DNA from: Baekduia alba
Lineage (GTDB): Bacteria; Actinomycetota; Thermoleophilia; Solirubrobacterales; Solirubrobacteraceae
Reading direction: 5' to 3'
Assembly: GCF_028416635.1 (NCBI RefSeq)
Contig: NZ_CP114013.1
Location: 496,001 to 560,000 of the forward strand
Length of the DNA stretch: 64,000 nt
Positions 39,360 through 59,256 of the stretch are shown in pieces (positions within the stretch are counted from its first letter, which is position 1; every line of letters starts with the position of its first letter). The position numbers and the translations under genes were made by a program. Below the pieces are notes generated by a model, which was not told the origin of the DNA, made no database searches, and saw nothing but the letters and a program-made list of their open reading frames with translations.

Positions 39360-39389
39360 GGGGGGCGGAGTCGGCGGCTTGCGCAATGG
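39360..39389 (+). promoter_or_regulatory. Shared promoter-like element, copy 3 (start of the secretion operon)
   Basis: GGGGGGCGGA (39360-39369), 15 bases, AATGG (39385-39389), 31 bases before the first gene of the type IV secretion-like operon. With copies 1 and 2 this is the best-conserved trio. Confidence 0.6.
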
Positions 39390-39419
39390 AAGAGGTGAAG
39401 CCCAACCGAGACCACCTCC

Positions 39420-40178
39420 GTGCCCGAGCCCGACACCTTCAACGCCGATCCCGCCGACAACCTGTTCGAGGCGCATGCCGAGCGTGCGCCCGAGCCGGCG
39501 TTCGACCCGGCGGCCGCGCCGGCGTCCGAACCGGTGGCCCGCGCGTACACGTGGGACGACGACCCGGGATCGGGGCGCTCCCGGCGCGAGGAGCTGCGCG
39601 AGACCGCCGACGACCTCCTCGCGCGGGCGCGCGACGGCATCGGCGCGCTCGTCGCGGCCCGGCCGCGCCTGGGGCGCGAGCCGCAGGCGGACAAGGGTCC
39701 GCGGACGGCCGGTCGCGCGCGGTTGATCGCGCCGGCCGCCGTCGGGATCGTCCTGTTGTTGGTGGCGATCGTCGTCGCGAGGCCCGGCGGCGGGTCGCAC
39801 CAGCAGCAGCAGCCCGCGCGCGCCGAGCGGACGGTCACCGCCGCCGCGCCGGCGCGACCCGCGACGGCGCGACCCGCGCCGGCGCGGCGCCCTGACGCCC
39901 ACCGCACGCCGATCACGCGCTACGCGGCGCGACCCGCCGAGGTCGCCGCGAGCGCGCCCCACCGGCATGCGGCGCGCCCGGCTCGCCGCCGCCACCGTCG
40001 TCACCGCCATGCGCGGCGCGCACCGCACCGGCGCGCGGCGCCGGCGCCGGCGAGCGCGCCGCCCGCGGCGGTCGCCCCGGCCCGGGCCCCCGCTCCCGCT
40101 CCCACTTCCACTCCCGCCCCCGCGCCCGCGCGAAAGCCCGCGCCCGCGCCCGACCAAGAGTTCACCTTCGAACGATGA
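39420..40178 (+). CDS. Single-pass membrane protein with Pro/Ala/Arg-rich outer domain
   Basis: 252 residues: an acidic, disordered cytoplasmic part (about 1-100), one membrane segment (about 104-120, IAPAAVGIVLLLVAIVV), then a long low-complexity Ala/Pro/Arg/His tail ending in QEFTFER. First gene of the secretion operon. It could span the thick wall or membrane as a VirB10-like structural element, but there is no homology to show it. The C-terminal EFTFE resembles the EFGVE and EFGIE segments of the two sigma fusions. Confidence 0.7.
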   Translation: MPEPDTFNADPADNLFEAHAERAPEPAFDPAAAPASEPVARAYTWDDDPGSGRSRREELRETADDLLARARDGIGALVAARPRLGREPQADKGPRTAGRARLIAPAAVGIVLLLVAIVVARPGGGSHQQQQPARAERTVTAAAPARPATARPAPARRPDAHRTPITRYAARPAEVAASAPHRHAARPARRRHRRHRHARRAPHRRAAPAPASAPPAAVAPARAPAPAPTSTPAPAPARKPAPAPDQEFTFER

Positions 40179-40216
40179 CTCATCAGCAGATTCCATCACT
40201 CTCAAGGAGGAAGGTA

Positions 40217-40606: not shown

Positions 40607-40616
40607 GGCGCCCGCG

Positions 40617-42956
40617 ATGCCGGTGCTCCGCAACACCACCGCGGGCGGCGCGGCCGGACCCTGGCGGGTCGTGGCGCGATCCGCGCTGCCCGCGGTGCGG
40701 CGCCGGCTCGCCATACCGCGCACCTGGGGGCGGCGGCGCACGTTCCTGGTCGCGTTCGCCGTGATCGTCGTCGTCGCGCTGGTCTGGCCCGAGAGCGCCT
40801 CGGCGTTCCCGTCGGTCGACAGCATCATCAACAAGGCCATCGACAAGATCTCCAAGAAGTTCTTCGGCGTCAACCTCGATGGCCTCAACGGCACGTTCTT
40901 CACGTGGCTGGTCAACGCCCCCAACTTCGCGGGGAAGGACAACGGCCACATCGACGGCAAGCTCGAGGCGCTCGGGCAAGTCACGCAGGGCATCAGCTTC
41001 GCGCTGATCGGGGCGGTGATGACGTTCTCCGCCCTCCAGTACTGGCTCTCGGGCATCGCCGACTTCAGCAGCGACGGCAGCGAGATGCTGCAGGGCCTCA
41101 CGCGCGGGGTGGGCGTGGCGCTGCTGATCACCGCGTGGCCGTGGATCTTCGAGAACTCCGTCGCGGTGTCCAACCAGGTCACGGCCGTGCTCGTCAACGG
41201 CAAGGACCTCGACACGCTGGCCGGCGCGCTCGTCGTTGCGCTGGGGGTGGCCAGCTTGAGCAGCATCGGGCTCGTGTTCGTGATCATCGTGGGACTGGCG
41301 ACCGCCGGCGTGCTGATGGCGCTGATCGCGATGAAGGTCGCGGTGACCGCGACGCTGGCGGTGCTGTACGCCGGCATGCCGCTCGCGTTCGTCCTGATGC
41401 CGCTCAACGCGACGGCCTGGATCGCGCGGCTCGCGACGCGCAGCTTCGTGGCCGTGCTGATGATCCCGATCATCTGGTCGCTGTGCCTGGCGACGTTCAT
41501 CGCGGTCGGCGTCGACTCGCTGACGTTCGGCGGCGGTGGCTCGATCGCCGACAAGCTCGTCAAGCCGCTCACCGCGCTGGCGTTGTTCTACATGATGTTC
41601 GCGCTCCCGCGCACGCTGATGAGGCTCGCGGCCCTGGGGTCGATCGTGCCTGGCATCGGCGGCGGCGGTGGCGGGCGGCGCGGTGGCGGCCCGGTCACGC
41701 AGCTGGGCCAGCAGGTCGCCGCCGAGGCCATCAGGCAGCATCTTCCGGAGGGCCTGATCCCGGACGACTCGCCGGGCGGCGGAGGGCAGCGCCGCAGCGG
41801 CGGAGACGGAGGCGGAGACGGTGGCGGAGACGGTGGCGGAAGTCAGCCTCGCAGTGGCGGCGCCTCGGGCGGCGGTGGATTCGAGGACGGAGCCTTCCCC
41901 GAATCCGGCTGGACCAGCGATGCCGGGACCGTCCACGACGGGGCCTACGGGCTGCCCACGCAGCCCGGCGCGGACATCGGCCCCGGCATGCAGGACATCG
42001 GGCAGCGCGCCGAGGAGCTCGGCAACATGGCCGCGGGAGGCCAGATGGCGGCTGGGCGCCAGGCCCTCAACGATCTGAACGCCGCCGGATATGGCGGCAG
42101 AGTCGGGCAGTACACCAACACGCACGGGCCCAACTCGACCGAGGGCCGCATGGCGGACGCCAGCATGGCCGCCGGGCTGTCGCCGGAGACCCAGGCGGCG
42201 TTCACGACCTGGGGCGCGCTCAGCCCGGGCACGCGGGACCAGCTGCTCAACGAGGCGTCGGCCGCCGAGACCGGCGGCGCCGGTGCGGGCGGCGGACCAG
42301 GCGCCGAGACGTCGGAGGCCGGCGGCACCGCCGCCCCCGGTTCCGGGAGCCCTCCCGGCCCCGTGGATCCGGGTATGGGCGGGAGCTCCGACCCCGGCGG
42401 CGCGCCCAGCGGCGGCGGCCCTGTGCCCGGGGATGGTGGCGCTGCGCCCAGCGGCGGTGGCGCTGCGCCCAGCGAGGGTGGCGCTGTGCCCGGGGATGGT
42501 GGCGCTGCGCCCAGCGAGGGTGGCGCTGTGCCCAGCGGCGGTGGCGATGGCCCGCCGTCGGGCTCCTGGTCCGAGGGCTCCTCGAGCTCAAGCGTCGGGG
42601 GCTCGGGTCCCGCGGGCGGCTCCTGGTCGGCACCGGGCGGCGACGGCTCCTCCGGCATGTCGGCGACCCCGCCGCGCGACGGCTTCGATGGCGGCTCCTC
42701 CGGCACGGCCTGGGTGGCACCGGACGGCGGCGACGGCTCCGACACGCCGGCGACCCCGCCGCCCCAAACCATCAGAGCGGGCGAGTTCCCGGGCGCCGAG
42801 TACTGGGCGAAGGGCGACGCGGCCACCCCGGACGGGTCGTCGGCCACCGCCGTCGCGGACGACCTGCCCCGATCCGGGCCGCCGGCCGGCGGAGGGTCCT
42901 CGGACGACTCCGCGCCCTACATCCCGCCCCCGGATGACGCAGGCCTGGACGGCTAG
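40617..42956 (+). CDS. TrbL/VirB6-like T4SS membrane channel protein
   Basis: 779 residues. After a basic N-terminus and a cleavable-looking hydrophobic helix (about 40-65), a VirB6/TrbL-type core with five or six membrane segments runs to about residue 350. The second half is a Gly/Pro/Ser-rich tail with 7-residue repeats of the form GGAAPSE, probably on the outside. It is expected to form the inner-membrane channel with VirB4 and PrgI. It starts 8 bases after the pilin-like stop. Confidence 0.82.
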   Translation: MPVLRNTTAGGAAGPWRVVARSALPAVRRRLAIPRTWGRRRTFLVAFAVIVVVALVWPESASAFPSVDSIINKAIDKISKKFFGVNLDGLNGTFFTWLVNAPNFAGKDNGHIDGKLEALGQVTQGISFALIGAVMTFSALQYWLSGIADFSSDGSEMLQGLTRGVGVALLITAWPWIFENSVAVSNQVTAVLVNGKDLDTLAGALVVALGVASLSSIGLVFVIIVGLATAGVLMALIAMKVAVTATLAVLYAGMPLAFVLMPLNATAWIARLATRSFVAVLMIPIIWSLCLATFIAVGVDSLTFGGGGSIADKLVKPLTALALFYMMFALPRTLMRLAALGSIVPGIGGGGGGRRGGGPVTQLGQQVAAEAIRQHLPEGLIPDDSPGGGGQRRSGGDGGGDGGGDGGGSQPRSGGASGGGGFEDGAFPESGWTSDAGTVHDGAYGLPTQPGADIGPGMQDIGQRAEELGNMAAGGQMAAGRQALNDLNAAGYGGRVGQYTNTHGPNSTEGRMADASMAAGLSPETQAAFTTWGALSPGTRDQLLNEASAAETGGAGAGGGPGAETSEAGGTAAPGSGSPPGPVDPGMGGSSDPGGAPSGGGPVPGDGGAAPSGGGAAPSEGGAVPGDGGAAPSEGGAVPSGGGDGPPSGSWSEGSSSSSVGGSGPAGGSWSAPGGDGSSGMSATPPRDGFDGGSSGTAWVAPDGGDGSDTPATPPPQTIRAGEFPGAEYWAKGDAATPDGSSATAVADDLPRSGPPAGGGSSDDSAPYIPPPDDAGLDG
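42412..42552 (+). repeat. 21-base tandem repeats inside the TrbL/VirB6 gene
   Basis: Six to seven units encoding GG(A/D)(A/V)P(S/G)(G/E/D). Units differ by few bases, so copy number may vary between strains and change tail length. Confidence 0.75.
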
Positions 42957-42959
42957 GCC

Positions 42960-43355
42960 ATGAACATCGCCTACAAGCACCTCGACTCGAAGCTGCGCAT
43001 CGGCGAGCTCACGATCGGCCAGTGGGTCTCCGTGGCGCTCGGCGTCGGCGTCGCCGGCGCCTGGGTGCTCTACATCCACCCGCCGCTCGGCGCGACGCTC
43101 ACCGTGGTCACGGCCGTGTACCTCGGCGCGCTGCCCGCGGGCGCCGCCCTGCTGGCCGGCTCCTCGGAGTTCAACCTCTTCGTGATCCTGCGCTCCGCGC
43201 TGCGGTGGCGCCGTCACCGCTGGCGCTTCGTCCCCGGGCCCGGCGACCACGTGCGCGGATACGTGCTGCATCAGGACCCCGCCAACGCCCCGCGCGAGGC
43301 GCGCCGGCAGGCAGTGGTCGACCTCGACACCACCGCCCTCTGGGAGGACCAATGA
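42960..43355 (+). CDS. PrgI/VirB3-like T4SS protein
   Basis: 131 residues, with two close membrane segments (about 20-65) after a short polar start, then a basic cytoplasmic tail. This matches PrgI-family proteins that precede VirB4 in Gram-positive conjugation systems and correspond to VirB3. Its stop overlaps the VirB4 start (ATGA). Confidence 0.82.
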   Translation: MNIAYKHLDSKLRIGELTIGQWVSVALGVGVAGAWVLYIHPPLGATLTVVTAVYLGALPAGAALLAGSSEFNLFVILRSALRWRRHRWRFVPGPGDHVRGYVLHQDPANAPREARRQAVVDLDTTALWEDQ

Positions 43356-46045
43356 AGCTGCGTCGCAAGACCAAGTCCAACACGAACGAGCACGGGCTGC
43401 CGGAGAGCGGCGAGCTGCTGCCGGTCGAGGCGCTCGACCGCACCGGCCTGGCGATCACCAGCGAGGGCGCGCTCGTGCGCATCCTGCACGTGATCCCGCC
43501 CAACCCGCTGATCCTGTCGGCGGTCGACCGGGCGCGCGTCGCCGCGTCGTTCTGCCAGATCGTCGCGCGCCTGCGACCGGGCCAGACGCTCCAGTTCTAC
43601 GTCCAGGCGCGGCCCGTCAACCTCGACGACGTGCTGCTGGACTCCCGCCGCGAGGTCGCGGCGTGGGCCGGCGAGCCGCCCGCCAAGGGCAAGCCCGCGC
43701 AGGATCCGCTCTCGCTTTCGCGCTGGCGCCTGTACGCGGCGATGGAGGAGTCCTTGCGCCTGCACGCCGACCATCAGGCCGCGGTCCGGACCGACGCCTA
43801 CGTGGTGGTCCCGCACGTCCCGGACCAGCGGTCCGCCCGCGCGCTGCTCCAGGCGCTGCGCCCGCGGGCGGCGGGGCGCATGGCCAGCGCGCCGCTGGAC
43901 CGCGAGCTGACCGCCCACCGCCGCGCGGTGCGCGAGAGCCTCGCGCTCACCGACGCCGTGCGCTCCGAGCTCGACGCGCTGTCGGTCCCGACGCGGCTGC
44001 TGGACGGCGAGGAGGTCGCCGAGCTGCTCTGGGGTCGGTTCAACCCGACGCACGCCGACAGCGGGCGACGCCGGCCGCCCGTCCGCAACGAGGTGCTCGG
44101 CACGCTCGACGGCACGCGCGACCGCGAGGAGGCCAGCCGCGCTGCCGAGCGGCTGCGCGGCGCCATCGCCCGCTCGACGTTCGACTTCTCCTCGTCCAAG
44201 CGCTACGCGGAGATCGACCAGGACCTCGAGCAGACGATCTACACCGCGACGACGGCCGACGCGACGACGATGGGCTGGCTGATGGGCGCGATGATGACGC
44301 GCCAGCCGTACACGCTCAGCGTGTTCGCCAGCGCGCTGGACCGGCGGCAGGAGCGGCGGCGGATGAAGATGGGCTACCGCCGGATCTTCTCCATCAACCG
44401 CGTCGCCGAGTCCAAGGGGCGCGTGCCGGACTTCGATCGCTACGCGCAGGAGACCGAGGCGCAGCGGCTGCTCGTGGAGATGGCCGGCCACGAGCGCGCC
44501 AGCCTGTACCGCGTCGCGATCTACCAGTCGCTGCGCTCGCGCGGGCCCGACCCCGACGTCGCGTCGCTCAACGAGGCGGTGGACTACTGCGTGGACCAGA
44601 TCGAGTCGGCGTCGGACTGCCGCGTCAGCCGCGGCGAGTTCCAGCAGCACGAGCTGTGGCAGTCGACGCTGCCGCTCGGTCGCGACGTCGCCCGCCGCAC
44701 GCGCCGTTACGCGACGCGCAACGTGGGCGACACGATCCCGCTGATCGGCACGAGCTGCGGGTCGCCGAGCGGGATCCCGTTCGCCTTCAGCGACCCGGGC
44801 CGCACGCTCGAGCTGCTCAACCCCTACGACCGAACGCACTCCAACTACACCATGTTGGTCAACGGTCGCAGTGGCTCGGGCAAGACGATGGCGGCCAACA
44901 TCATGATCTCGCGCTGCATCGCGCACGGCGCCCGCGCGTTCGTGATCGACCGCGCCGGCCACTACGGCGTGCTCACCGCGCTGGTGGCGGGCGCGCAGCA
45001 GATCGAGATCGGCGCCGACGACAGCCCGTTCGCGATCAACCCGTGGGATGTCCCGGACCCCGCCGACGTCAGCCTCGAGAAGATCGCGTTCCTGGTCTCG
45101 CTGCACGGCGTGATGATGGGCGACGAAGGGCTGACGACGCTCGAGCGCGCCCACCTCGGCGCGGCGATCCGCAGCGTGTACGCGCAGGCCGCGCACACCG
45201 GCAGCACGCCCCGTGAGTCGATGCTGCGCGCGGAGCTGCTGCAGCGGTCCCGGGCTGAGCAGGAGCAGGGCTCCAACGACGTCGCGGCGGTCCTGCGCAA
45301 CCTGGCCGAGCGGCTCGGCGAGTACTGCGGCGAGGGCTCCTACGCCTACCTGCTCGATCGCGAGACGACGGTCCCGACCGACAGCCCGCTCGTGGTGTTC
45401 GACACGCGCCGCTGCCCGGAGATCGTGCTCCGCTCGGTGATGTTCGCGATGGTCGAGTACGTCACCCGCGCGATCGAGCGCCACCGTGACCAGTCTCGCT
45501 CGCTGTCGCACCAGCCCGACGCGCCGATGTTCACGGGCCGCACGGTGATGTTGATCGATGAGGCATGGCACCTCGTCGGGCGGCGCGAGACGGGCGAGTT
45601 CGCCAACGACCTCGCCCGCCGCGCGCGCCACCTCGGGCTGTTCCTGATCGTCATGTCCCAGCACATGTCGGACTTCGCGACCGAGCATGGCCTGGCGCTG
45701 ATCCGCAACTCGACGATGCAGCTGTTCCTGTCCCAGCACCCGGACGAGATCCCGTTCGTCCAGGACGCGCTGCGGCTGTCGGACGAGGAGGCGGCGCTCA
45801 TCTCCCGGTTGAAGACCGTCAAGGGCTCGCACGCGCAGATGTTCTGGGTCAACGGCGCGCGCGGCAAGGGCCGCGTGGCGCTGCGGATCGGGCCGCGCGA
45901 GTACTGGGCCTACACCTCGGACCCGCTGCGCGACGTGCCGCTGCGCGACGCCGCCGTGGCCCGTGCCGACGGTGACGTCTGGCGCGGCATCGTCCAGCTT
46001 GCCGCGTCGACGAGCACCAACGGCGACGGCAGCGGCCGGGGGTAG
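43352..46045 (+). CDS. VirB4-type T4SS ATPase
   Basis: 897 residues. The N-terminal half (to about 480) is the VirB4/TraC substrate-binding region. The ATPase domain has Walker A GRSGSGKT at 505-512 and Walker B MLIDEAWHL with Asp736 and Glu737, followed by LFLIVMSQH and a C-terminal SRLKTVKGSHAQMF segment typical of VirB4. It powers assembly and transport at the inner membrane. It is translationally coupled to PrgI upstream and lies 6 bases before the wall hydrolase gene. Confidence 0.93.
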   Translation: MKLRRKTKSNTNEHGLPESGELLPVEALDRTGLAITSEGALVRILHVIPPNPLILSAVDRARVAASFCQIVARLRPGQTLQFYVQARPVNLDDVLLDSRREVAAWAGEPPAKGKPAQDPLSLSRWRLYAAMEESLRLHADHQAAVRTDAYVVVPHVPDQRSARALLQALRPRAAGRMASAPLDRELTAHRRAVRESLALTDAVRSELDALSVPTRLLDGEEVAELLWGRFNPTHADSGRRRPPVRNEVLGTLDGTRDREEASRAAERLRGAIARSTFDFSSSKRYAEIDQDLEQTIYTATTADATTMGWLMGAMMTRQPYTLSVFASALDRRQERRRMKMGYRRIFSINRVAESKGRVPDFDRYAQETEAQRLLVEMAGHERASLYRVAIYQSLRSRGPDPDVASLNEAVDYCVDQIESASDCRVSRGEFQQHELWQSTLPLGRDVARRTRRYATRNVGDTIPLIGTSCGSPSGIPFAFSDPGRTLELLNPYDRTHSNYTMLVNGRSGSGKTMAANIMISRCIAHGARAFVIDRAGHYGVLTALVAGAQQIEIGADDSPFAINPWDVPDPADVSLEKIAFLVSLHGVMMGDEGLTTLERAHLGAAIRSVYAQAAHTGSTPRESMLRAELLQRSRAEQEQGSNDVAAVLRNLAERLGEYCGEGSYAYLLDRETTVPTDSPLVVFDTRRCPEIVLRSVMFAMVEYVTRAIERHRDQSRSLSHQPDAPMFTGRTVMLIDEAWHLVGRRETGEFANDLARRARHLGLFLIVMSQHMSDFATEHGLALIRNSTMQLFLSQHPDEIPFVQDALRLSDEEAALISRLKTVKGSHAQMFWVNGARGKGRVALRIGPREYWAYTSDPLRDVPLRDAAVARADGDVWRGIVQLAASTSTNGDGSGRG

Positions 46046-46051
46046 CGGGCG

Positions 46052-47476
46052 ATGGACCCGGCCACCGCCACCGCCGTTCTGGAGGGCTCGAAGGTCGCGG
46101 GCAGCGCTGCCTCGAGCGCTGCCGCGGGCGGCGGCGCGGCCGGTGGCGGTGCGGCCGGTGGCGGTGCGGCCGGTGGCGGTGCGGCCGGTGGCGGCGCCGG
46201 CGGGAGCGCCGGCCTCGGCCAGCTCGGCCAGCTCGGCCAGCTCGGCCAGCTCGCGGGGTCCGGCGGTGGCGGGAAGAGTCAGAGCGGCGGCGGCGAGGCC
46301 CAGCAGTCCGGCTCCAACGTGCTGCTCGGCCTGCTGGGGGCGGTCGCCGGGCTGGGGCTGCTGCCGCTGATCGTGATCTGCGTCGTCGTCGGCGTCGTCT
46401 CCTCGCTGCTCGCGTCGGTCAACCCGTTGGGCAGCGGCAGCGCGGGCACCTCGTGGAAGTACCGCTGGCCGGCGGACAGCGGCATCCCCGTGGTGTACCG
46501 CCCGATGTACGAGGTGGCGTCCGCGCAGTTCGGCGTCAACCCGTACCTGATCGCGTCGATCCATCAGCAGGAGACGGACTTCTCGCGCAACCCGGCCGCG
46601 AGCCACGGGACCAACTCGTCGGGCGCGGCCGGGCCGATGCAGTTCCTGCTGACGACCTGGGCCTCCTCGCACGACAGGGCGTTCGCGGCGATCGCGGACC
46701 GCCGGCCGGCCGCCTATCCGCTGAACCGGCGCGATCTGTCGAGCTGCGACGGCGTGCCCAAGGACGTGGGCTGCGTGTACGACGACTTCGACGCGATCGC
46801 CGGCGCCGCGCACAAGCTCAAGGCCGACGGCGCGAACATGGATCTCACCTCGCCCGGCACCCACCGCGCCGTGTGCGCCTACATCGGCGCCTGCAGCGAG
46901 GTCGATCGATGCATCGAGCACTCGATCAACCAGTACTGCCAGGTGCTCCCACGGGCGCGCAAGTGGGAGCTCGAAGGGGGGCCCATGCCCGCGCAGGGCG
47001 CGGTGCCCATCGCGGGCAACGACGCGGGCAAGGCCGTCGAGTGGGCGCTGTCCCAGGAAGGCGTCGAGGAGAAGCCGAAGGGCAGCAACTGCGGCGGCCC
47101 GATCACCGCCTGGGCCCGGCGGACCGGCGTCGCGTGTGGCCAGGCGTGGTGCGGCGTGTTCGTGCACGAGGCGTACGTCCACGCCGGCATCGACCTGCCG
47201 AGCTGGATCGCGTCGGTGCCGGAGACGCAACGCAAGGCGCTGGCGGGCAACGGCGGTCTGATGGTCGTCCCGAAGGACCAGATCAAGCAGGGAGACATCC
47301 TGATCTTCCAATGGAACACCGGCGTCCCGGACCACATGGGCCTGGCTGCCGAGGACTACGCGGGCCACGGCACCGTGTCGACGATCGAGGGCAACACGAG
47401 CGACGGGGTGCACCGTCGCCTGGAGCAGCCCAGCACGATCGTCACCGTTGCGCGACTGATAAAGGGAGCAAAGTGA
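46052..47476 (+). CDS. VirB1-like wall hydrolase: lytic transglycosylase plus CHAP/NlpC domain
   Basis: 474 residues. A Gly/Ala/LGQ repeat region (about 20-70) precedes a membrane anchor (about 88-118). The lytic transglycosylase domain follows, with catalytic Glu in SIHQQETDF and AAGPMQF. A C-terminal CHAP-type amidase/endopeptidase domain carries the Cys in GQAWCGVFV and the His in PDHMGLA. Such two-domain enzymes open peptidoglycan for conjugative channels in Gram-positive bacteria. Its stop overlaps the lipoprotein start. Confidence 0.9.
   Translation: MDPATATAVLEGSKVAGSAASSAAAGGGAAGGGAAGGGAAGGGAAGGGAGGSAGLGQLGQLGQLGQLAGSGGGGKSQSGGGEAQQSGSNVLLGLLGAVAGLGLLPLIVICVVVGVVSSLLASVNPLGSGSAGTSWKYRWPADSGIPVVYRPMYEVASAQFGVNPYLIASIHQQETDFSRNPAASHGTNSSGAAGPMQFLLTTWASSHDRAFAAIADRRPAAYPLNRRDLSSCDGVPKDVGCVYDDFDAIAGAAHKLKADGANMDLTSPGTHRAVCAYIGACSEVDRCIEHSINQYCQVLPRARKWELEGGPMPAQGAVPIAGNDAGKAVEWALSQEGVEEKPKGSNCGGPITAWARRTGVACGQAWCGVFVHEAYVHAGIDLPSWIASVPETQRKALAGNGGLMVVPKDQIKQGDILIFQWNTGVPDHMGLAAEDYAGHGTVSTIEGNTSDGVHRRLEQPSTIVTVARLIKGAK
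46127..46252 (+). repeat. Two short tandem repeats at the start of the wall-hydrolase gene
   Basis: A 15-base unit (encoding GGGAA-like steps) in four copies is followed by a 9-base unit (LGQ) in four copies at about 46214-46252. Both are near-perfect. Confidence 0.75.
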
Positions 47477-48033
47477 TGACCAGAGGTGCCGTGGCGCTGG
47501 CCGCGACCGGCCTCGTCCTCGCCCTGGCGGGGTGCGGGGTGTCCGACCCCTACAACGACGCCAAGCACGCCAAGGCGACGACCGCCGCTCCGGCGACGAC
47601 CGCCGCTCCGGCGGCGGCGGCGCCCGCGGCGAGCACCGCGCCGCCGCCGGCGACCGACGCCGCCACACCCGAGCGTGCGCTGTCGGCCGTCGCGCTGGCC
47701 TGGGGAAACTGGACGAGCGCGAACGTGCACGCCCAGCACGTGCGGGCGATCGCCCTGACCGCGGGCTCGGCCGCCAAGCTGCTCAAGGTCGAGAACCGCC
47801 AGCTCGAGGACGGCGTGGTCTCCGCGCCCGAGGACCTGCGCTCGCGCGCCACGGTGGAGGCGCTCACCGTGCGTCCGGGCGCGACGCGGCGCGCGGCCGT
47901 GGTCGTCACGCACGAGCAGCTGACGGGGCTCGGGCCGCTGGGCTCCAACAGCGACTACGTCGTGACGCTGGCGACCGTCGAGCGCCGCGGCGCCGCCGGC
48001 TGGGTCGTCACCCGCTGGGAGCGACAGTCATGA
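47476..48033 (+). CDS. Lipoprotein with VirB8/NTF2-like domain
   Basis: 185 residues. Lipobox LALAGC puts it on the outer face of the membrane. A short Ala/Pro/Thr linker leads to a domain of about 115 residues (ALSAVALAWGNWTSANV, ending WVVTRWERQS) whose size and pattern fit the NTF2-like fold of VirB8/TcpC proteins; this is an inference. The ATG overlaps the hydrolase stop, and its stop overlaps the next start. Confidence 0.78.
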   Translation: MTRGAVALAATGLVLALAGCGVSDPYNDAKHAKATTAAPATTAAPAAAAPAASTAPPPATDAATPERALSAVALAWGNWTSANVHAQHVRAIALTAGSAAKLLKVENRQLEDGVVSAPEDLRSRATVEALTVRPGATRRAAVVVTHEQLTGLGPLGSNSDYVVTLATVERRGAAGWVVTRWERQS

Positions 48034-48821
48034 GCCCGCCGCAGCTGCGCGAGGAGCGCGCGGTCGACGTCGAGCGCGACGACGAGCGCGACGTCGCGCC
48101 GGCGCCGGCGCCGACGGCCCGGCCCACGACCGGCCCGCTGCTGGCCGTGGCCGGCCTGTGCGGCGGCGCGGGGGCGAGCACCATCGCGTTCCTCACCGCG
48201 CGCCAGGCCGCCCGCGCGGACGACCGCCCAGTGCTCGTCTGCGACACCGGCGGCCCGACCGGCGGCCTGGCGGCGTGCGCGCGCGTCGTCGCGCCGCGCT
48301 CGCTGCCCCGCGCCGCGGCCGCGATCGCCGCGCACCAGCCGCTCGGCGGCGGGCTGTTCGCCGACGCGGGCGGCGGGCTGCGCGTGATGGCCAGCGCGCC
48401 CGAGGCGCCAGTCGCCGTGGAGCGTCCGGCGGCCGCGCGCGTCCTGGCCGACGCGCGCGCCGCCCATCGGCTGACGGTCGTCGACTGCGGCGTGCCGTCC
48501 GAGCCGATCGACCACCAGGTGCTCGACGACGCCTCCCACCTGGCGTGGGTGCTGCCGGCCACCACCGGCGGTCTGCGCCGCGCCCAGCGGACGCTGGACC
48601 TGTTCGCGACGCTCCCCGGACGGCGCGAGGTGCTCGTGGCACGCCACGACGCGGCCGGCGCGACCGCGCCGATCGCGGCGCTCAAGGCGCTGGCGGCGCA
48701 GCGGCACGCGCCGCTGCTCCTCGTGCCCCACATCCCGGACCTGGCCGAGGAGTCGCCGGACGCCGCCCTCGACCTCGCGGGCGAGGCGCTCCAGGCGCTG
48801 GTCGCGGAGATGTGGCGATGA
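48030..48821 (+). CDS. ParA/MinD/CpaE-like P-loop protein with non-canonical Walker A
   Basis: 263 residues. After an acidic, Pro-rich start, the sequence LLAVAGLCGGAGASTIAF aligns with the ParA/MinD deviant Walker A (KGGxGKTT). The first Lys is Cys and the second is Ala, so ATP hydrolysis is doubtful. Later elements VLVCDTGG and LTVVDCGVPSE match switch strands. CpaE-type proteins localise secretion machineries to the pole; a similar positioning role is possible. Overlaps both neighbours. Confidence 0.75.
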   Translation: MSPPQLREERAVDVERDDERDVAPAPAPTARPTTGPLLAVAGLCGGAGASTIAFLTARQAARADDRPVLVCDTGGPTGGLAACARVVAPRSLPRAAAAIAAHQPLGGGLFADAGGGLRVMASAPEAPVAVERPAAARVLADARAAHRLTVVDCGVPSEPIDHQVLDDASHLAWVLPATTGGLRRAQRTLDLFATLPGRREVLVARHDAAGATAPIAALKALAAQRHAPLLLVPHIPDLAEESPDAALDLAGEALQALVAEMWR

Positions 48822-51841: not shown

Positions 51842-52738
51842 ATGGGCGCATCCGGCAAGAAGCTTCCCGGGCACGGCGCGCGGCGCAAGGCGCTGTCGCC
51901 GGGCCCTTCGATCAAGGACTCCAACTACGGCCCGCGGCCGCATCCGGTCGCGCTCCGCGCTGGCCAGCGGTTCTGGCCGCGCGCGGGCGAGCGCCGGCGC
52001 GGCTTCGCGATCGTCCGCGTGGACGACCGGCACGCCTTCGGGCAGCGCGAGGACGGCGACGCCCGCCTCGCGCGCCACGCCGTCAGCCGGCTGCTGGCCG
52101 CCGACGCGGACGGGCGCGGCCGGCACTTCGCCTTCACCGGCTGGGTCCCGGGCCGGCGCTACCGGGCGCTCGCGCGCGTGGTTGCGGTCGGCGACGCCGC
52201 GACGCTCGTGCTCCCCGATTGGCATCCCGGCCACCCGATCCGGTTGCCGGCGGGGCTCCTGCGCGGCGCCGGTCCGGGCGACTGGGTCGACGTCCGCGCC
52301 GACCTCGGCGCGGCCAGCCCCGCCACGCTGCAGCTCGACCTGGTCGGCGTCGCGGCGCCGCCCGCCGAGGGCACCCTTCCGGCGATCACCTACGCGCCGC
52401 CCGCCGTCGCGCCGCCCGGTGCCCGGCGCGCCGGCCCCGACGCGATCGTCTTCGAGCTCGCCGGCGCCGGCCTGGACGCGGCGGCGCCGGCGGTCGGCGG
52501 CCGGCGCGAGCTGCACACGCTCGAGCGCATCCGGCTGTCCGCCGGCGCGCGCGTCCACCTCGCCGAGCCGGGCGAGCCGCGCATCACGCGCTACCTCGAG
52601 CTCCTCTCCGTGCGGTTGCTGCCGCACGGCTGCGTGCTGATCTGCGGTGCCGAGCCGCGGCCGCTGGACCGGCCGATCCCCTGCGACCTGCGCCGGAGCC
52701 ACGGCGCGTGGCGCAAGGTGTGGTGGGAGGCCGCGTGA
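51842..52738 (+). CDS. Uncharacterised protein of the secretion locus
   Basis: 298 residues, soluble, without a signal peptide, beta-rich and very Arg/Ala-rich. Segments such as FAIVRVDDRHAFGQ, HFAFTGWVPGRRYRAL and YLELLSVRLLPHGCVL show alternating hydrophobic strands. I recognise no family. It overlaps the L,D-transpeptidase gene by four bases (GTGA), so it is part of the same expression unit. Confidence 0.72.
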   Translation: MGASGKKLPGHGARRKALSPGPSIKDSNYGPRPHPVALRAGQRFWPRAGERRRGFAIVRVDDRHAFGQREDGDARLARHAVSRLLAADADGRGRHFAFTGWVPGRRYRALARVVAVGDAATLVLPDWHPGHPIRLPAGLLRGAGPGDWVDVRADLGAASPATLQLDLVGVAAPPAEGTLPAITYAPPAVAPPGARRAGPDAIVFELAGAGLDAAAPAVGGRRELHTLERIRLSAGARVHLAEPGEPRITRYLELLSVRLLPHGCVLICGAEPRPLDRPIPCDLRRSHGAWRKVWWEAA

Positions 52739-53487
52739 CGCCGCCCGCCCGCCGCCGGCGTCCCCGGACCGCGCTGCGCGCCGCGGCCGTCGCCGCGCTC
52801 GCGGCCTGCGGGCTGGCCGCCGTCGCGCCGTCGCCCGCGGGCGCGGTCGGCGCGCCGACCCAGCGCGCGGCCTGGACGGCCCGCATCGTCGCCGCCACGA
52901 CGGCGACCAGCCGCCCCGGCGGCGGCCGCACGCTCGCGCGGCTGCCGGTGACCACGAGCTGGGGCGGCGGGCCGGTCACGCTGCTCGTCCACGGCGCCCG
53001 TCGCGACAGCGCCGGGCGGCGCTGGCTGCGCGTCGGGCTGCTGCAGCGCGGCCCGCGCCGAACCGGCTGGATCCCCGCCGACGACGCGGTCCTCGGCCGC
53101 ACGAGCTGGCGTGTCGAGGTGTCGCTGCACCGCCGCCGCGTGGTCGTCCGCCGCGGCGGGCGCGTGCGATGGCGGCTGCACGCGGTCGTGGGCTCGCCGA
53201 CGACGCCGACGCCGACGGGGACGTTCTCGGTCCTCGAGCGCGTCCGCCAGCGCGACCCCGGCGCCTTCCCCGGCTCCTGGGTGCTGTTCCTCACCGCTTA
53301 CTCCCACGCCGTGCGCTGGTTCGACGGCAACGACGGCCAAGTCGGGCTCCACGGCCGCGGCGGCGCCAGCCTCCGCGACCCGCTCGGCAGTGCCCGCTCA
53401 CACGGTTGCATCCGCCTCACCAATCGCGCGATCGCGCGCATCGCCCGGCACGTGCCGGACGGCTCGCCGGTCGTGATCACTCGATGA
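52735..53487 (+). CDS. Secreted L,D-transpeptidase (YkuD domain)
   Basis: 250 residues with an N-terminal export signal (hydrophobic stretch about 14-38), an SH3-like wall-binding region (about 45-105), and a C-terminal YkuD domain with catalytic motif SHGCIRLTN preceded by VGLHGRGG. It forms 3-3 peptidoglycan cross-links outside the cell and would reseal or reinforce the wall around the secretion channel. It starts with GTG inside the preceding stop and overlaps the surface protein gene. Confidence 0.92.
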   Translation: MTPPARRRRPRTALRAAAVAALAACGLAAVAPSPAGAVGAPTQRAAWTARIVAATTATSRPGGGRTLARLPVTTSWGGGPVTLLVHGARRDSAGRRWLRVGLLQRGPRRTGWIPADDAVLGRTSWRVEVSLHRRRVVVRRGGRVRWRLHAVVGSPTTPTPTGTFSVLERVRQRDPGAFPGSWVLFLTAYSHAVRWFDGNDGQVGLHGRGGASLRDPLGSARSHGCIRLTNRAIARIARHVPDGSPVVITR

Positions 53488-53501: not shown

Positions 53502-54980
53502 ATGACGATCCCCCGGGCCGCCCTCGGCCCGCTCCTCCTCCTGTTCCTGCTGACCCTCGTCGCGCTCGGCCGGCCGGCCGCCTCGGAGGCGGCCGGCATC
53601 TCGGCCCGGACCTGCACCGGCGCGAACGCGACGGTCCCCGGCGGCTTTGCGAGCGCCGGGCAGTGGGCGGTGCTGGAGAACAACGTCGGGCAGCGCCCGC
53701 AGTACGGCACGTCGACGAACTTCACCGGTGTGCCGCTGTGCGCGGTGCGCTCCACGGGCACCGGCACCAGCGGCGATCCGCAGTGGATCTTCTGCACGCA
53801 GGCGTCGCTGTACGCGTGCGGGCAGGACGCCTTCGGCGGCGCGAGCCTCGCGGCCGACCTCGACGCGCGGGCGCGCGCCGAGATGGCCTGGGCGATCACC
53901 ACCGCCGACCTGTCCACCGCGATCGGCCGCGCCGTCGTGCAGACACGCGTGTGGTGCGTGGCCGACCGCGTCCAGCGCCATCGCGCCGACGCCGACATCG
54001 TCGCCGACGCGCGCGCGTACTTCACCGACCACGGGGTCACGCTCCCCGCCGGCACGGCGTGCCCGAGCTGGGGCGCGGTCGACGCCGGCCTGCGCCCGCA
54101 TCCGCAGCTGACTGCGCGCGCCACGTCCGCGACCGTCGCCGCCGGCGACCCGGCGCGCTTCGAGATCACGACGAACCTGCCCGAGATCCGCGTCGCGGCC
54201 AAGACGGCGGACGGCGTCGCCGCGTCGCTGGACCTGTGCCCGGACGCGCCGGCCGGCATGACGCTCAGCGGCGGGACGCTCCAGCTCACCGGTACCTCCG
54301 ACGCCGCGGCGCGCACGGTGCCGCTGTGCGCCGCGGGACCGGACGCCGACGGCTCGACGCGGCTCGACGTCAGCACGACCACCGCGGTCGCCGGCGACCT
54401 CACGGTCATCCGGTCGCTGCGCTCGCCGTCGACCTGCCAGCTCATGGTCACCGCGCGCGGCGGGCGGCTCGCCGCCTCGGCCACGGTGGGCACCGAGCAG
54501 GAGGAGCAGGAGTCCGAGGAGACCGAGGAGACCGAGGAGACCGAGGCCCCGGTCGTCGCGACCGCGCGGAGCACACCGGCGCCGAACCTCACGATCGCCA
54601 AGCGGCGCGTGCGTCGACACGGCGAGGCGCGGCGCGTGCACAGCGGCGCTGCGGTGCGCTGGGCGATCACGGTCCGCAACACGGGCACGGGCGCGGCCAG
54701 CAACGTCCGCGTCTGCGACACGCTGCGGCGCGGCCTGGCCGTCGTGCACACGACCCCACACGCGCCGCTGAGCGGCGGCCGGGCGTGCTGGCGGCTGAAG
54801 TCCGTGGCGGCCGGCGGCCGCGTCACCCTGCGCATCACGACGCGCGTGAGCGTCGGCAGCGACGGCGCGCGCTGCCACGCGCTCGCCAACAAGGCCTCGA
54901 TCGTCGGCGGCCCGTCGGCCAGCAGCACCGTGACCGTGTGCCACCGCACCCGGACGCGCAGCGGCGGCACCACCGGCTGA
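53502..54980 (+). CDS. Secreted surface protein with DUF11 domain, possible adhesin
   Basis: 492 residues with a signal peptide (LGPLLLLFLLTLVALG). The first domain has several cysteines and a CTQAS and AVVQTRVWC pattern slightly like thioester-adhesin (TQXA) domains; this is uncertain. A low-complexity acidic segment (EETEETEETE) follows, then a DUF11-type Ig-like domain (VRWAITVRNTGTGAASNVRV) and a basic end. An ATG at 53484 overlapping the previous stop is an alternative start. It could be the contact factor of the secretion system. Confidence 0.78.
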   Translation: MTIPRAALGPLLLLFLLTLVALGRPAASEAAGISARTCTGANATVPGGFASAGQWAVLENNVGQRPQYGTSTNFTGVPLCAVRSTGTGTSGDPQWIFCTQASLYACGQDAFGGASLAADLDARARAEMAWAITTADLSTAIGRAVVQTRVWCVADRVQRHRADADIVADARAYFTDHGVTLPAGTACPSWGAVDAGLRPHPQLTARATSATVAAGDPARFEITTNLPEIRVAAKTADGVAASLDLCPDAPAGMTLSGGTLQLTGTSDAAARTVPLCAAGPDADGSTRLDVSTTTAVAGDLTVIRSLRSPSTCQLMVTARGGRLAASATVGTEQEEQESEETEETEETEAPVVATARSTPAPNLTIAKRRVRRHGEARRVHSGAAVRWAITVRNTGTGAASNVRVCDTLRRGLAVVHTTPHAPLSGGRACWRLKSVAAGGRVTLRITTRVSVGSDGARCHALANKASIVGGPSASSTVTVCHRTRTRSGGTTG

Positions 54981-55022
54981 GCGCGGCATGAAGATCCCGG
55001 GGACGCGCGGCGGCGCGTCTCC

Positions 55023-55052
55023 GGGGGGCGCCCGGCCCGGGTCGGTCAATGA
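55023..55052 (+). promoter_or_regulatory. Shared promoter-like element, copy 5 (diverged)
   Basis: GGGGGGCGCC (55023-55032), 15 bases, AATGA (55048-55052), 41 bases before the 55094 start. Position fits a promoter for the small protein and the coupling ATPase. Confidence 0.45.
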
Positions 55053-55093
55053 GATCCATGAAGGACCTCATCCACCGATCCAAAGGAGGGCTC

Positions 55094-55396
55094 ATGCCCG
55101 AGTTGCTCAACGAAGGCCTGCCCGAGCGCAGCGCCCGGTCCAAGTTCGACTTCACCAAGTGGGCCGACGGGCAGGCCTGGAAGTTCGTCAGAGGCGAGGA
55201 CTACACGAGCTCGACCGAGACGTTCCGCTACAACGTGAAGCGCTGGGCCAAGGCCCAGGGCGTCGAGATCGAGCTGCGTCCCTACCCGCAGGTCGACGCC
55301 GACGGCAACGAGGTGCCGCTGACGAAGGCCGACGCGGTCGCCCTCGGCGTCCGCTTCGTCGTCGACGCGCCGGCCCCAGCGGCCGCCGCGCGATGA
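55094..55396 (+). CDS. Small conserved-looking protein before the coupling ATPase
   Basis: 100 residues, soluble and charged (KFDFTKWADGQAWKF, then YNVKRWAKAQGVEIE). Strong ribosome site AAAGGAGGG. Its stop overlaps the coupling-ATPase start (ATGA), and it has its own copy of the shared promoter element. No family recognised. A partner or cargo-binding adaptor of the ATPase is a reasonable guess from position. Confidence 0.75.
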   Translation: MPELLNEGLPERSARSKFDFTKWADGQAWKFVRGEDYTSSTETFRYNVKRWAKAQGVEIELRPYPQVDADGNEVPLTKADAVALGVRFVVDAPAPAAAAR

Positions 55397-58300
55397 CCAA
55401 CCGGACCCTCGCGGCGGTGTTCGCCGTCGCCGTCCTCGCCGTGGCCGCCCTCGTCGCCGGGGTGCTGGCCGGCGAGGCGGCCGCGGCCGACGCGGGCGCC
55501 GCGTCTCAGCACCACGCCGCGCAGATCGTCGACCACGGCCCGGGGATCCTCGCGGACGTGGTCGGCACGGCGTGGCGGATCGTGCGCCTGCCGCTGCTGC
55601 TCGGCATCGTCGGCACCGGCTCGCTGTTCTTCATGCGCAGGCGCGCGCGTGCGGAGCGGCGCTTCACGCGGCTGTGGCTGCTGCCGTTCCGCGCCGACGA
55701 CGCCGAGCCCGAGGCGGTCATGCGGCTGCTGGAGTCCTGGCATCAGCAGCTGCTGGAGCGCTGGTGGCGCCGGCTGATGCACGGCCAGGCCGGTCTCGCG
55801 CTGGAAGTCATCATGGCCCCCGACGCCGAAGGCGATCGCACGGCGCGGCTGTCGGTCGTCTGCCGGGAGGAGTTCGCCGAGACGGTCGAGGGCAGCCTGC
55901 TGGCCTGCTATCCGGACAGCCGACTGGTGCGCGGCGAGCAGGGGCTGCCCGCCGTCACCGAGGTCATCCGGATGAAGAAGCGCTACTCGTTCGTGCGCGC
56001 GCTGCGCGGCGGGGAGCTCGAGGACGGCAAGGTCGTCGACACGCTGCTCGGCCAGATGGACCGGATCGGCGAGACGGCCGTCGTCCAGTACGCGCTGACG
56101 CCGACGCCGGCGCTGTTCGACCACTACTCGCGCTGGCGCTACGGCCTGCGTGAGCGGGACGCCGGCGCCGCCGCGGCCCGCAACCCGGCGAACCCCGGCA
56201 TGCGCTCCGAGGTGCTCGCGGCCGAGCTCCAGGGCGGCCTGCGGGTGCAGCACCGCGCGCTGTTCTTCACCGAGATCCGCATCGGGGCCGCCAGCTACGG
56301 CGCCTGCCGGGCGATCGCCGGAGCGTTGCGCGGCGCGTCCGCCGCCGAGAACCGGCTCGTGGAGCGCCACATGCGCGTGCGCCGCGACCTCTACCTGCGG
56401 CGCCTGCGCGCTGCGGTCGGCAACCCGATCCCGGGTTGGCGCCGCGAGGTGCTCAGCTCCGGCGAGCTGGCCGGCCTGTGGCAGCTGCCCAGCCCGGGGC
56501 TCAAGACCGCGCGGGTGGCGCGGACCCCGGTGCCGCGCCTGCTCGCGCCGCCGGAGATCAGCCGCAAGGAGCTGCACGCGCTGGCGCGCGACGAGCGCGG
56601 CCTGGTCGGGATTCGGCCCGAGGACAAGAGCGACGGGCTGGGCCTGATCGGCGGCCAGAAGACCGGCAAGACCTCGGTGCTGTGCCGCACGGTGCAGGCC
56701 GACGGGCTCGACGACTCCTGCGCGATGGTCGTCCTCATGCCCAAGCCGGGCGACGCGCTCAAGGCGCTGTCGATGGTCCCCGCCGGGCGCACGGTCCACT
56801 ACCTCGACCTCGAGCGGCCCGAGCTCGGCATCAACCCGCTGATGGGCGACGGCGAGCCGGCGATGATCGCCGACAAGGTCGTCGAGGCGTTCCGCGACGT
56901 GCACGCCGAGGGCGACATCAAGGGCTCTTCGGACCGCTACCTGCGCCAGGCGGCGCAGGCGGCGATCGGCGCCAGCCGCCACGGCGTCATCGACGGGCCG
57001 CCCACGCTCTGGCACATGTACCGGATGCTGCTGCCGCCGGAGGTGAGCTTCCGCGAGAAGGTCGTGGAGGCGCTCTACCCCGACCAGCGCTTCACCGAGA
57101 CGGCCACGTTCTTCGGCCGCGAGCTGCCCAACGACCTGGCCAACGCGGCCGCCCAGACCAACGCCAAGCTCGACGCCCCGCGCAACAAGCTGCTGCGGCT
57201 CATGGTCGACTCGCTGGACAAGGTCCTGCGCCATCCCAAGCAGCTGAACCTCGACGAGGTCATCCGCAACCGGGAGGTGCTCATCGTCGACGGCAAGATG
57301 GGCACCTTCGGCACCGACAACTGCCGGGTGATGATGCAGTTCATCCTCACCTGCCTCTACGGCGCGCTCCAGCGCCAGCAGCAGCTCCCGGACGCGGAGC
57401 GGGTGCGCGTCGCGGTCAAGGTCGACGAGGCGCACCTGATCATCAACAACTCGTTCGCGGACGCGTTGGCGACGCTGCGCTCGGCCGGCCTCGAGGTCGT
57501 CGCCGCGTGGCAGTACGGGGCGCAGATCGAAGACCCCAAGCTGCGCGGCGGCATGATGAGCCTCCTGCGTCAGCGCTGCATGTTCTCCATGGGCGAGGCC
57601 CAGGACGCGCTGGAGATGAGCAAGATGGCGATGGCGGCCTACACCGACCTGATCCGCGACGACACGGCGTCGCGGGCCCGGCTGCGCCTCACGCCCGACA
57701 CCATCTTCAACCTCCCCAACCACCATGCGGTGTGCTCGTGGATCAGCAAGGGCGCGCGGCAGGGCGCGTTCATCGCCACGACGATCCCGCTCGAGGTCGA
57801 CGACGAGGTCGTCGCCCACCACCTCCAGGCCCAGCGCGAGCGCGGCGGGTTCGTGCCCGACCGGCTCCCGGATCCGATGCCCGACCTCGACTGGAGCGAT
57901 CCCGACGACGAGGTCTCGGTCGACATGCCCGAGCTCGAGGTGGAGGCCGCGGCGCTGGTCGGCGCCGCGGCGGTCGCCGAGCGGTCGGCTCCGGTGCGCG
58001 CGCCGGAGCCGCCCGCGCCTCCGGCGCCTCCGGCGCCGCCCGTGCCCCCGGCGCCGCCCGTGCCCCCGGCTCCGCCGGAGGAGCCGCTCGCGCCGGACGA
58101 GTTCCTCGAGCCGGCTCCGGTCGAGGACGCCGAGCGGACCCCCGCGCCGCCGCGCGAGGGCGCGCCCGACTCCTACACCGAGCTCGACTTCGACGACGTC
58201 CGCGGGCTCGTCTGGGAGAGCGACGAGCCCAACGCCGAGCCGCACGAGCCCAGCGAGCGCGAGCTCGAGATCCTCGGGGCGCTGTGGGCGAGCCGCTTCC

Positions 58301-59256
58301 TGTTCACCAGCCAGATCTGGCGCCGGTGGTGGGCGACCAGCTCCCAGCGGGCGTGCCAGCAGGGCATGCAGCGGCTGTACGCCGCGGGCTGGGTCCGGCG
58401 CTTCAAGTTCCAGCGCGGCGAGCGCGGCGCCCAGCAGCGCGTGTACTCCCTCACCGAGGCGGGCTTCGAGATCCTGCGGGGGCGGACCGGCCGCAAGGGC
58501 CAGTACCTGCGTGACGACGAGGTCTGGCGCATGCCGTCGACCGGGGACCCGCGCCACATCCTGCGCGACCTCCAGGTCAACGGCTGGGTGCTCGCCCTGG
58601 AGAACCTGGCGGGCTCGCGCCGGGTCGGGCGCTGGCTCGGGCCGGGCCAGGGCCGCCTCGAGCCGCCGCGGCGCAAGGTCTACGGCGAGTGGAAGGACCT
58701 GCGTCCGTCCGAGGTCGTGCTCGGGTCCAACCACCGGCTCCAGGGGTTCGCCGGTGAGCACTTCGAGGCGGTCATGCCGAACGCGACGGTCGAGCTCCGG
58801 CTCGGCGGCGGCGAGCGCCAGCGGCGCATCGACCTCCTCGTCGAGCTCGACCGCAACCGCGGCCTCGGCGCCGCCGAGGACCGCCTCCGGCGCTACGACG
58901 GCCTCGTCTCCGGCTGGGGCCGGATGCTGCGCCGGTACCGGTCGCTGGGCACGGTGCCGGCGGTCGTCTTCGTCAGCGGCGACGACCACAGCCGCCTGCG
59001 GCTGATCCAGCTCGCCGACCGGGTGCTGACCACCCGGATCGCGAAGGCCGGCAGCGACGAGCGCGAATGGCCCTACCTCGGCCGTCGCTCGATCTTCTTC
59101 GCGATCGAGCGCGACGTCCACGAGGGCTCCCTCGCGGCGCTGGCGCTGCCGCCGCTGCCGCCGGAGGCGCGGGTGCGCCTCGGCGAGCCCGACGCCGAGG
59201 CCTGCCGGCCGCGGCGCGTGCACATCGTCGACCCGCGCCTGCTGCCGACGCGCTGA
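55393..59256 (+). CDS. TraD/VirD4-like coupling ATPase fused to a replication-relaxation domain
   Basis: 1287 residues. Two membrane segments (about 5-27 and 61-82) and an N-terminal domain precede an ATPase domain with Walker A GGQKTGKT (420-427) and Walker B VKVDEAHLI (Asp678, Glu679). A Pro-rich linker (about 870-935) leads to a winged-helix plus alpha/beta domain (about 955-1250; LEILGALWASRFLFTSQI, YSLTEAGFEIL) of the replication-relaxation (Replic_Relax) type. The first half is the motor that feeds substrates to the T4SS; the second half probably binds DNA. Such a fusion would join motor and DNA recognition in one chain. Confidence 0.85.
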   Translation: MTNRTLAAVFAVAVLAVAALVAGVLAGEAAAADAGAASQHHAAQIVDHGPGILADVVGTAWRIVRLPLLLGIVGTGSLFFMRRRARAERRFTRLWLLPFRADDAEPEAVMRLLESWHQQLLERWWRRLMHGQAGLALEVIMAPDAEGDRTARLSVVCREEFAETVEGSLLACYPDSRLVRGEQGLPAVTEVIRMKKRYSFVRALRGGELEDGKVVDTLLGQMDRIGETAVVQYALTPTPALFDHYSRWRYGLRERDAGAAAARNPANPGMRSEVLAAELQGGLRVQHRALFFTEIRIGAASYGACRAIAGALRGASAAENRLVERHMRVRRDLYLRRLRAAVGNPIPGWRREVLSSGELAGLWQLPSPGLKTARVARTPVPRLLAPPEISRKELHALARDERGLVGIRPEDKSDGLGLIGGQKTGKTSVLCRTVQADGLDDSCAMVVLMPKPGDALKALSMVPAGRTVHYLDLERPELGINPLMGDGEPAMIADKVVEAFRDVHAEGDIKGSSDRYLRQAAQAAIGASRHGVIDGPPTLWHMYRMLLPPEVSFREKVVEALYPDQRFTETATFFGRELPNDLANAAAQTNAKLDAPRNKLLRLMVDSLDKVLRHPKQLNLDEVIRNREVLIVDGKMGTFGTDNCRVMMQFILTCLYGALQRQQQLPDAERVRVAVKVDEAHLIINNSFADALATLRSAGLEVVAAWQYGAQIEDPKLRGGMMSLLRQRCMFSMGEAQDALEMSKMAMAAYTDLIRDDTASRARLRLTPDTIFNLPNHHAVCSWISKGARQGAFIATTIPLEVDDEVVAHHLQAQRERGGFVPDRLPDPMPDLDWSDPDDEVSVDMPELEVEAAALVGAAAVAERSAPVRAPEPPAPPAPPAPPVPPAPPVPPAPPEEPLAPDEFLEPAPVEDAERTPAPPREGAPDSYTELDFDDVRGLVWESDEPNAEPHEPSERELEILGALWASRFLFTSQIWRRWWATSSQRACQQGMQRLYAAGWVRRFKFQRGERGAQQRVYSLTEAGFEILRGRTGRKGQYLRDDEVWRMPSTGDPRHILRDLQVNGWVLALENLAGSRRVGRWLGPGQGRLEPPRRKVYGEWKDLRPSEVVLGSNHRLQGFAGEHFEAVMPNATVELRLGGGERQRRIDLLVELDRNRGLGAAEDRLRRYDGLVSGWGRMLRRYRSLGTVPAVVFVSGDDHSRLRLIQLADRVLTTRIAKAGSDEREWPYLGRRSIFFAIERDVHEGSLAALALPPLPPEARVRLGEPDAEACRPRRVHIVDPRLLPTR

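Follow-up and report, generated by a model that had tools for sequence, protein, structure and literature searches.

The stretch of DNA analysed here, referred to below as the window, covers 64,000 nucleotides (positions 496001-560000) of the single-contig 5.86 Mb genome of Baekduia alba (G000), and its plus strand carries, from about 36 to 63.7 kb, a gene series encoding a type IV secretion system (T4SS) of the Gram-positive conjugation type. The last coupling protein of the series bears a MOBC relaxase-family domain at its C-terminus. The locus has the look of a once mobile system now resident in the chromosome, where it may have acquired a new job. The explanation we favour, with somewhat better than even confidence, is that it represents a chromosomally settled, probably non-self-transferring derivative of a conjugation-type T4SS, belonging to a lineage that often joins coupling motor and MOBC-type relaxase in one chain.

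The initial annotation had described this system as possessing coupling ATPases and no visible relaxase. A relaxase-family domain is nonetheless there, as the C-terminal domain of the last coupling ATPase (55393-59256): its match to PF13814 passes the Pfam cut-off, with an E-value of 1.5e-6 in the long frame and 5.8e-8 for the domain alone. PF13814 relaxases are named MobC by CONJscan (PMC5357655). MOBC enzymes are related to PD-(D/E)XK nucleases, and in TraX of pAD1 a winged helix lies at the N-terminus (PMC12857230). Searched against the PDB, a profile of the relaxase domain found chains of helix-turn-helix-type regulators (best E 3e-4); up to E 5 it hit none of the solved nucleases. The remainder of the protein has the membrane-anchored RecA-type motor by which type IV coupling proteins (T4CPs) such as VirD4 and TrwB are recognized, with Walker A and Walker B motifs and two predicted N-terminal transmembrane (TM) segments. 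No Pfam T4CP model matched this motor part. The best PDB match of a motor family profile, which takes in the pseudo-motor described below as well, was TrwB (E 6.6e-5 over 61 positions around Walker B); for a motor structure model of moderate confidence (predicted local distance difference test, pLDDT, 57.6), the top 32 Foldseek matches (TM-scores 0.27-0.34) were TrwB chains, followed by Cag beta, TM-scores being low throughout at 0.27-0.41. MobC of CloDF13 was considered as a yardstick and dropped, as no MobC frame stood out clearly in the CloDF13 record. No earlier report of a coupling protein-relaxase fusion was found in the open-access literature, including the available portions of PMC5357655, PMC11104534, PMC12857230, and PMC12102498.

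The same combination recurs among relatives. When tried on 22 genomes, the motor-relaxase query matched 13; besides the own genome and the congener G010, these were 11 others. In nine of the 11 (G013, G029, G030, G109, G124, G130, G134, G137, and G141) a single open frame encodes both motor and relaxase, and in G095 and G139 the two occupy separate neighbouring frames; judged from sequence, the fusion is a real architecture. The N-terminal domain varies too: the window, G029, G109, G139, and G095 have it joined to the motor, and in G030, G134, G137, and, by position and eye, G141 it is encoded by a separate upstream gene. The fusion is not universal among VirB4 carriers, since nine of the 22 genomes gave no match to the query and all of these but G005 and G007 carry VirB4. 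The motor-relaxase genes of G109 and G029 lie on contigs other than that of the VirB4 match, and G109 also has a classical VirD4/TraG coupling protein (contig C45, L053:12410-13663) near a VirB4 of the same family, indicating that some relatives use an ordinary T4CP. Among plasmids, the relaxase domain found no match and the motor part two records, at 26% identity.

Five motif residues of the relaxase domain were compared with those of 35 other domains in an alignment count; its rows are related rather than independent, and it omits two duplicates, the weak row L141, and six domains in which the motif was not located. The window copy has Asn at 58780, where 33 of the 35 have Asp, and Arg at 58882, where 32 have Lys; it retains the Glu, Asp, and Tyr present in 35, 35, and 33 of them, respectively. 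In none of the 35 are the first and fourth residues both changed, and the conserved acidic and lysine residues that mark the PD-(D/E)XK-like site of MOBC enzymes are accordingly incomplete in the window copy. These columns are presumably the catalytic ones, and the window relaxase is probably without working activity. Ratios of non-synonymous to synonymous substitution (NG86 dN/dS) were 0.49-0.76, values judged unreliable at the present codon bias.

The surroundings of the locus look like those of a resident rather than a mobile sequence. Tyrosine integrase (PF00589) matches number 19 in the genome, the nearest about 249 kb from the locus (serine recombinases were not searched), and no tRNA gene was found in the window or within 40 kb on either side. 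No att-like repeat was found; the exact direct repeats of greatest length (20-21 nt) fall within paralogous sigma factor genes. These two sigma paralogues were themselves considered as element ends and rejected, as their 73% nucleotide identity is unlike that of att sites. An ordinary integrative and conjugative element (ICE), which would be expected to show a nearby integrase and att repeats or a tRNA target, is not favoured for the window copy, where searches for a tyrosine integrase, a tRNA gene, and att-like repeats all came back empty, although some relatives do fit that description. The initial annotation had suspected a settled copy, and the suspicion is supported on partly different grounds. 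Its statement that the window lacks an integrase was correct, and to this are added the missing tRNA and repeats, the altered relaxase signature, and the reduction of the motor in a congener; its other reason, absence of a relaxase, did not survive, and the vertical conservation that it proposed as a test was not borne out across the family.

VirB4 was found in 25 of 146 family genomes and two of seven genomes of the genus, in a census counted to E 1e-20 and hence including quite distant versions, and two single-contig congeners are without it. G134 holds three different VirB4 copies, and the VirB4 tree splits genera g9, g23, and g24. Patchy occurrence, multiple copies in G134, and the scattering of genera over the tree together form the pattern of a mobile lineage and argue against strict vertical conservation; the T4SS lineage appears to have moved, and the window branch looks settled.

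Several relatives also look mobile. Integrase queries (16 from the own genome and one from G078) were run against 20 stretches of 4-40 kb from relatives, 18 around VirB4 genes and two around motor genes, and seven gave a tyrosine integrase match (G013, G028, G030, G078, G134, G137, and G139), confirmed by Pfam in the five to which it was applied (G030, G078, G134, G137, and G139). The integrase lies about 0.1 kb from tRNA-Leu in G134, 0.2 kb from tRNA-Phe in G078, and 0.8 kb from tRNA-His in G030. Genes for single-stranded DNA-binding protein occur near the systems of G134, G139, and G109; one of the G134 copies also has ParA/ParB nearby. Far att repeats sought from the tRNA genes of G030, G134, G139, and G078 within 80-100 kb were not clear in any case, with none in G030 and G078 and a weak 17-nt match (E 0.19) in G134. 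In G139 (L046+L047, 3556-12756) a 21-nt, 95% copy of the tRNA-Asp 3' end lies about 9 kb downstream (E 5.8e-4), together with a 14-nt match; this copy would bracket the stretch before the T4SS and not the T4SS itself, and possibly represents the att sites of another small element. The VirB4 pattern had no match in viral contigs and 11 distant records in a phage collection, and plasmid VirB4 matches were below 60% identity, none covering 80%, among the 5000 best matches. A single scan of genome contigs gave three loci. No paper on type IV secretion in Thermoleophilia was found in the open-access literature.

The series contains a further coupling-type ATPase, paralogous to the fused one (30% over 461 residues), in whose Walker columns GGSDAARRA and IDGADD are read; this second motor is presumably inactive, going by these residues. 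Congener G010 keeps the channel genes, its VirB4 being 71% identical to that of the window over 877 residues. At E 1e-8 the motor-relaxase query found a single match in it, an open frame of 348 aa that lacks the N-terminal domain, Walker A, and the relaxase; one stand-alone PF13814 gene lies on the same contig, distant from the T4SS. In G000 and G010 alike, the system borders on a sigma gene and on LysR genes that belong to one subfamily, which suggests that the two systems occupy a shared place. The LysR-type genes of the window are three in tandem (32248-35152, minus strand), all of one subfamily; related genes form a pair at 5.44 Mb of the own genome and two clusters in G010, of which one is beside its T4SS.

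Several observations weigh against a settled system that no longer transfers itself. The structure model of the relaxase domain is unusable (pLDDT 38.8), Asp is lost alone in two and Lys alone in three of the 35 other domains, and the divergence of the window relaxase is what the motor predicts (z -1.5 to +0.4 in nine window comparisons, with the model fitted on 36 other pairs), so that constraint on the domain has not simply lapsed. No empty site could be read in G005 or G007, where matches to the flanking LysR genes reach at most 37%. The sigma-like gene near the G030 system has no Pfam match, so the link between sigma factor and T4SS rests on fewer genomes. Taken together, these points speak for reuse more than for decay, with some residual activity still conceivable. 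One could envisage a still functional conjugative element, whose fused relaxase tolerates both substitutions and which is integrated by another recombinase or no longer needs integration. The relaxase domain passes the Pfam cut-off and evolves in step with its motor, the Walker A of VirB4 (by eye) and the motor Walker motifs are intact, and the patchy distribution and the splitting of genera over the VirB4 tree would suit such an element; we nevertheless regard it as unlikely, given that the joint change of Asp and Lys is unparalleled in the 35 domains and that neither att-like repeat nor tRNA, nor any tyrosine integrase within about 249 kb, was found (serine recombinases and transposases were not searched genome-wide). 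That the locus is a functionless relic in decay is quite unlikely: the motif-less second motor, the altered relaxase motif, and the truncated G010 motor could be so explained, but the main frames remain open across about 23 kb with coding-like third positions, VirB4 is well conserved in G010, and the relaxase is not excessively diverged.

The channel might alternatively serve another relaxase in trans. A genome-wide check for relaxases, proposed in the initial annotation, gave no MOBP and no MOBQ match (MOBV, MOBT, and MOBH were not searched), a single PF13814 match at E 0.01 or better, which is the fused domain, and TrwC (MOBF) at three places, one uninterrupted (4.42 Mb) and two seemingly interrupted. 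The uninterrupted TrwC has an integrase, and G010 carries a 1249-aa TrwC gene about 13 kb from its T4SS in addition to its stand-alone PF13814 gene, all of which lends the idea some substance. We hold it to be decidedly improbable, however, as a VirB4-like (TcpF-related) ATPase and further T4SS-like genes lie about 8-14 kb from the TrwC gene at 4.42 Mb, the other two copies appear interrupted, and none lies near the window in G000. The region at 4.417-4.440 Mb (L158, L159), with tyrosine integrase, TrwC relaxase, TcpF-related VirB4-like ATPase, and T4SS-like genes, looks like a separate ordinary element.

From what is known of the families involved, in related elements oriT would be bound by the winged helix of the relaxase and nicked by its PD-(D/E)XK-like part. 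The motor on the same chain would then pass the strand to a channel made of VirB4, PrgI, VirB6, and pilin, with the wall opened by the SLT/NlpC enzyme. In the window, motor and VirB4 retain their Walker motifs and the relaxase part is still recognisable. Because two relaxase residues are replaced, no tyrosine integrase or att site was found nearby, and the second motor is without catalytic motifs, the system most likely no longer transfers itself. It may export protein or nucleoprotein, the former relaxase now serving as an adaptor that binds DNA, or might act on DNA nicked by another enzyme. More tentatively, and with odds well short of even, it could constitute a new secretion or DNA-handling device, in which a non-cutting relaxase adaptor sits on an active motor, the motif-less second motor has a structural or regulatory role beside it, and dedicated sigma factors are employed.

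The channel genes (Table 1) comprise VirB4, PrgI/VirB3, VirB6, and a wall hydrolase in one cluster, the set by which a monoderm conjugation-type T4SS is recognized. VirB4, whose Walker A is intact as read by eye, is the secure call; PrgI, SLT, and NlpC/P60 all fall under the Pfam cut-offs. The gene series given in the initial annotation stands for VirB4, the L,D-transpeptidase, the DUF11 surface protein, and the two paralogous coupling-type ATPases; the PrgI, VirB1-like, and ParA-like assignments are weaker, with matches below curated cut-offs, and the pilin, VirB6, VirB8-like, and SpoIIM-like labels reflect position, hydrophobicity, and relatives. Some gene models, in the window as in relatives' loci and TrwC regions, come from a simple codon-position caller and not a standard program.

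Table 1. Coordinates of features of the type IV secretion locus within the window
Feature	Position	Strand	Remarks
ECF-type (extracytoplasmic function) sigma factor, long C-terminal extension	36172..37494	+	Sigma70_r4_2 E 2e-9
Secreted Ig-like surface protein, candidate adhesin	37565..39262	+	CarboxypepD_reg/Big matches weak, below cut-off
Single-TM Pro/Ala-rich protein	39420..40178	+	By eye, similar gene before pilin gene in G010
VirB2-like pilin candidate, hydrophobic helices	40175..40606	+	Position before VirB6; no family match
VirB6/TrbL-like polytopic protein, Gly-rich repeat tail	40617..42956	+	TM segments; no family match; start uncertain
PrgI/VirB3-like	42960..43355	+	PF12666 E 0.0046, below cut-off
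VirB4 ATPase	43352..46045	+	P-loop_TraG E 8e-18; TraC-F-type E 2.8e-43 (under that model's cut-off)
VirB1-like, SLT + NlpC/P60, one TM segment	46052..47476	+	E 0.014 and 0.0003, weak, below cut-off
Lipoprotein-like protein in putative VirB8 position	47473..48033	+	No HMM (hidden Markov model) match; 30% homologue in G141 locus
ParA-like, Ssd/CpaE-related	48030..48821	+	TIGR03815 E 2e-10, below cut-off
4-TM SpoIIM-like protein	48818..49411	+	SpoIIM E 0.18 only; homologues in relatives
Second coupling-type ATPase (pseudo-T4CP)	49408..51804	+	Walker A and Walker B glutamate lost; 30% to active motor
Protein of no known family	51842..52738	+	35% homologue in G124 T4SS locus; no family match
L,D-transpeptidase	52735..53487	+	YkuD E 2.8e-21
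DUF11 surface protein	53502..54980	+	E 7e-14
Small conserved protein	55058..55396	+	74% identical (86 residues) gene beside G010 T4SS
Coupling protein: 2 TM segments, N-terminal domain, T4CP-like motor, MOBC relaxase-family domain	55393..59256	+	1287 aa from this start
Intact Walker A (GGQKTGKTS) of coupling protein	56650..56676	+	
Replic_Relax (PF13814) match	58276..58902	+	
Stretch with five motif residues N..E.D..R..Y	58780..58896	+	
Second sigma factor with zf-HC2, possible right border	62270..63679	+	57% identical to first over 315 residues

The T4SS unit probably starts earlier than first noted, since sigma-factor-like and Ig-like genes lie near homologous systems in some relatives. Among the seven congeners, strong matches to the first sigma factor occur only in G000 and G010, both with a T4SS, and a 29% match in G009; sigma-like genes near the T4SS were found in G137 (Pfam-confirmed) and, by BLAST, in G139, L002, and G030. 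Homologues of the Ig-like protein lie a few kb from the T4SS in G137, G134, G139, G109, and G010, and 25-39% homologues of the VirB6/TrbL-like protein occupy the same place in relatives. The Gly/Pro-rich tail of the latter contains an imperfect tandem repeat (42396-42554). Six gaps examined for an oriT held no convincing iterons. Downstream of the coupling protein, two tandem genes (59505-61103) have a common domain of about 140 residues, present twice in the second, without Pfam or PHROGs match, and the sigma factor at 62270-63679 combines sigma factor region 4 with an anti-sigma type zf-HC2 zinc finger in one chain. Elsewhere in the window, paralogous small secreted-looking proteins, 47% identical, are encoded at 8454-8927 and 35626-36099, the latter beside the sigma gene, and a thiamine pyrophosphate (TPP) riboswitch (10654-10761, minus strand) marks the 5' end of a gene, probably thiC, at 9292-10668.

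A single chain of motor and MOBC-family relaxase, recurrent in one actinobacterial family, offers a handle on how a relaxosome meets its secretion channel, a contact usually studied with separate proteins. As some relatives have all parts fused, others a break ahead of the motor, and others one ahead of the relaxase, domain order becomes testable. The window copy, in which the relaxase is altered and the second motor lacks its motifs, is a candidate for an intermediate stage on the way from mobile element to a secretion system owned by the host.

MPF_FATA-type conjugation systems of monoderm bacteria comprise PrgI, VirB4, VirB6, and an NlpC/SLT hydrolase (PMC12102498), and the present systems, judged from components and not by a dedicated MPF model, resemble them in component set and order and in the integrase found near the system in some relatives, in three beside a tRNA gene; they differ in the fusion of relaxase to motor, and the window copy further in its altered relaxase motif and in having no integrase found. 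PF13814 and a D..ExD..K..Y motif like a PD-(D/E)XK site are shared with MOBC relaxases such as TraX of pAD1 and MobC of CloDF13, whereas the domain is here the C-terminal part of a T4CP and not a separate protein, with Asp and Lys replaced in the window. The likeness to TrwB/VirD4 lies in the Walker A/B motor, the two predicted N-terminal TM segments, and the profile and fold matches to TrwB; unlike those proteins, the window protein has an extra N-terminal domain (a separate gene in some relatives) and a relaxase tail, and a motif-less paralogue stands in the same series. Patescibacteria possess relaxase-poor chromosomal T4SSs of monoderm type that are thought to be co-opted and are widespread in the phylum (PMC12102498); the window system is likewise chromosomal, of monoderm type, and possibly co-opted, but its kind is patchy in distribution and still carries a relaxase-family domain. 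Relative to known monoderm conjugation-type T4SSs, what appears to be new, as read from the encoded proteins, is the union of coupling motor and MOBC-family relaxase in a single chain.

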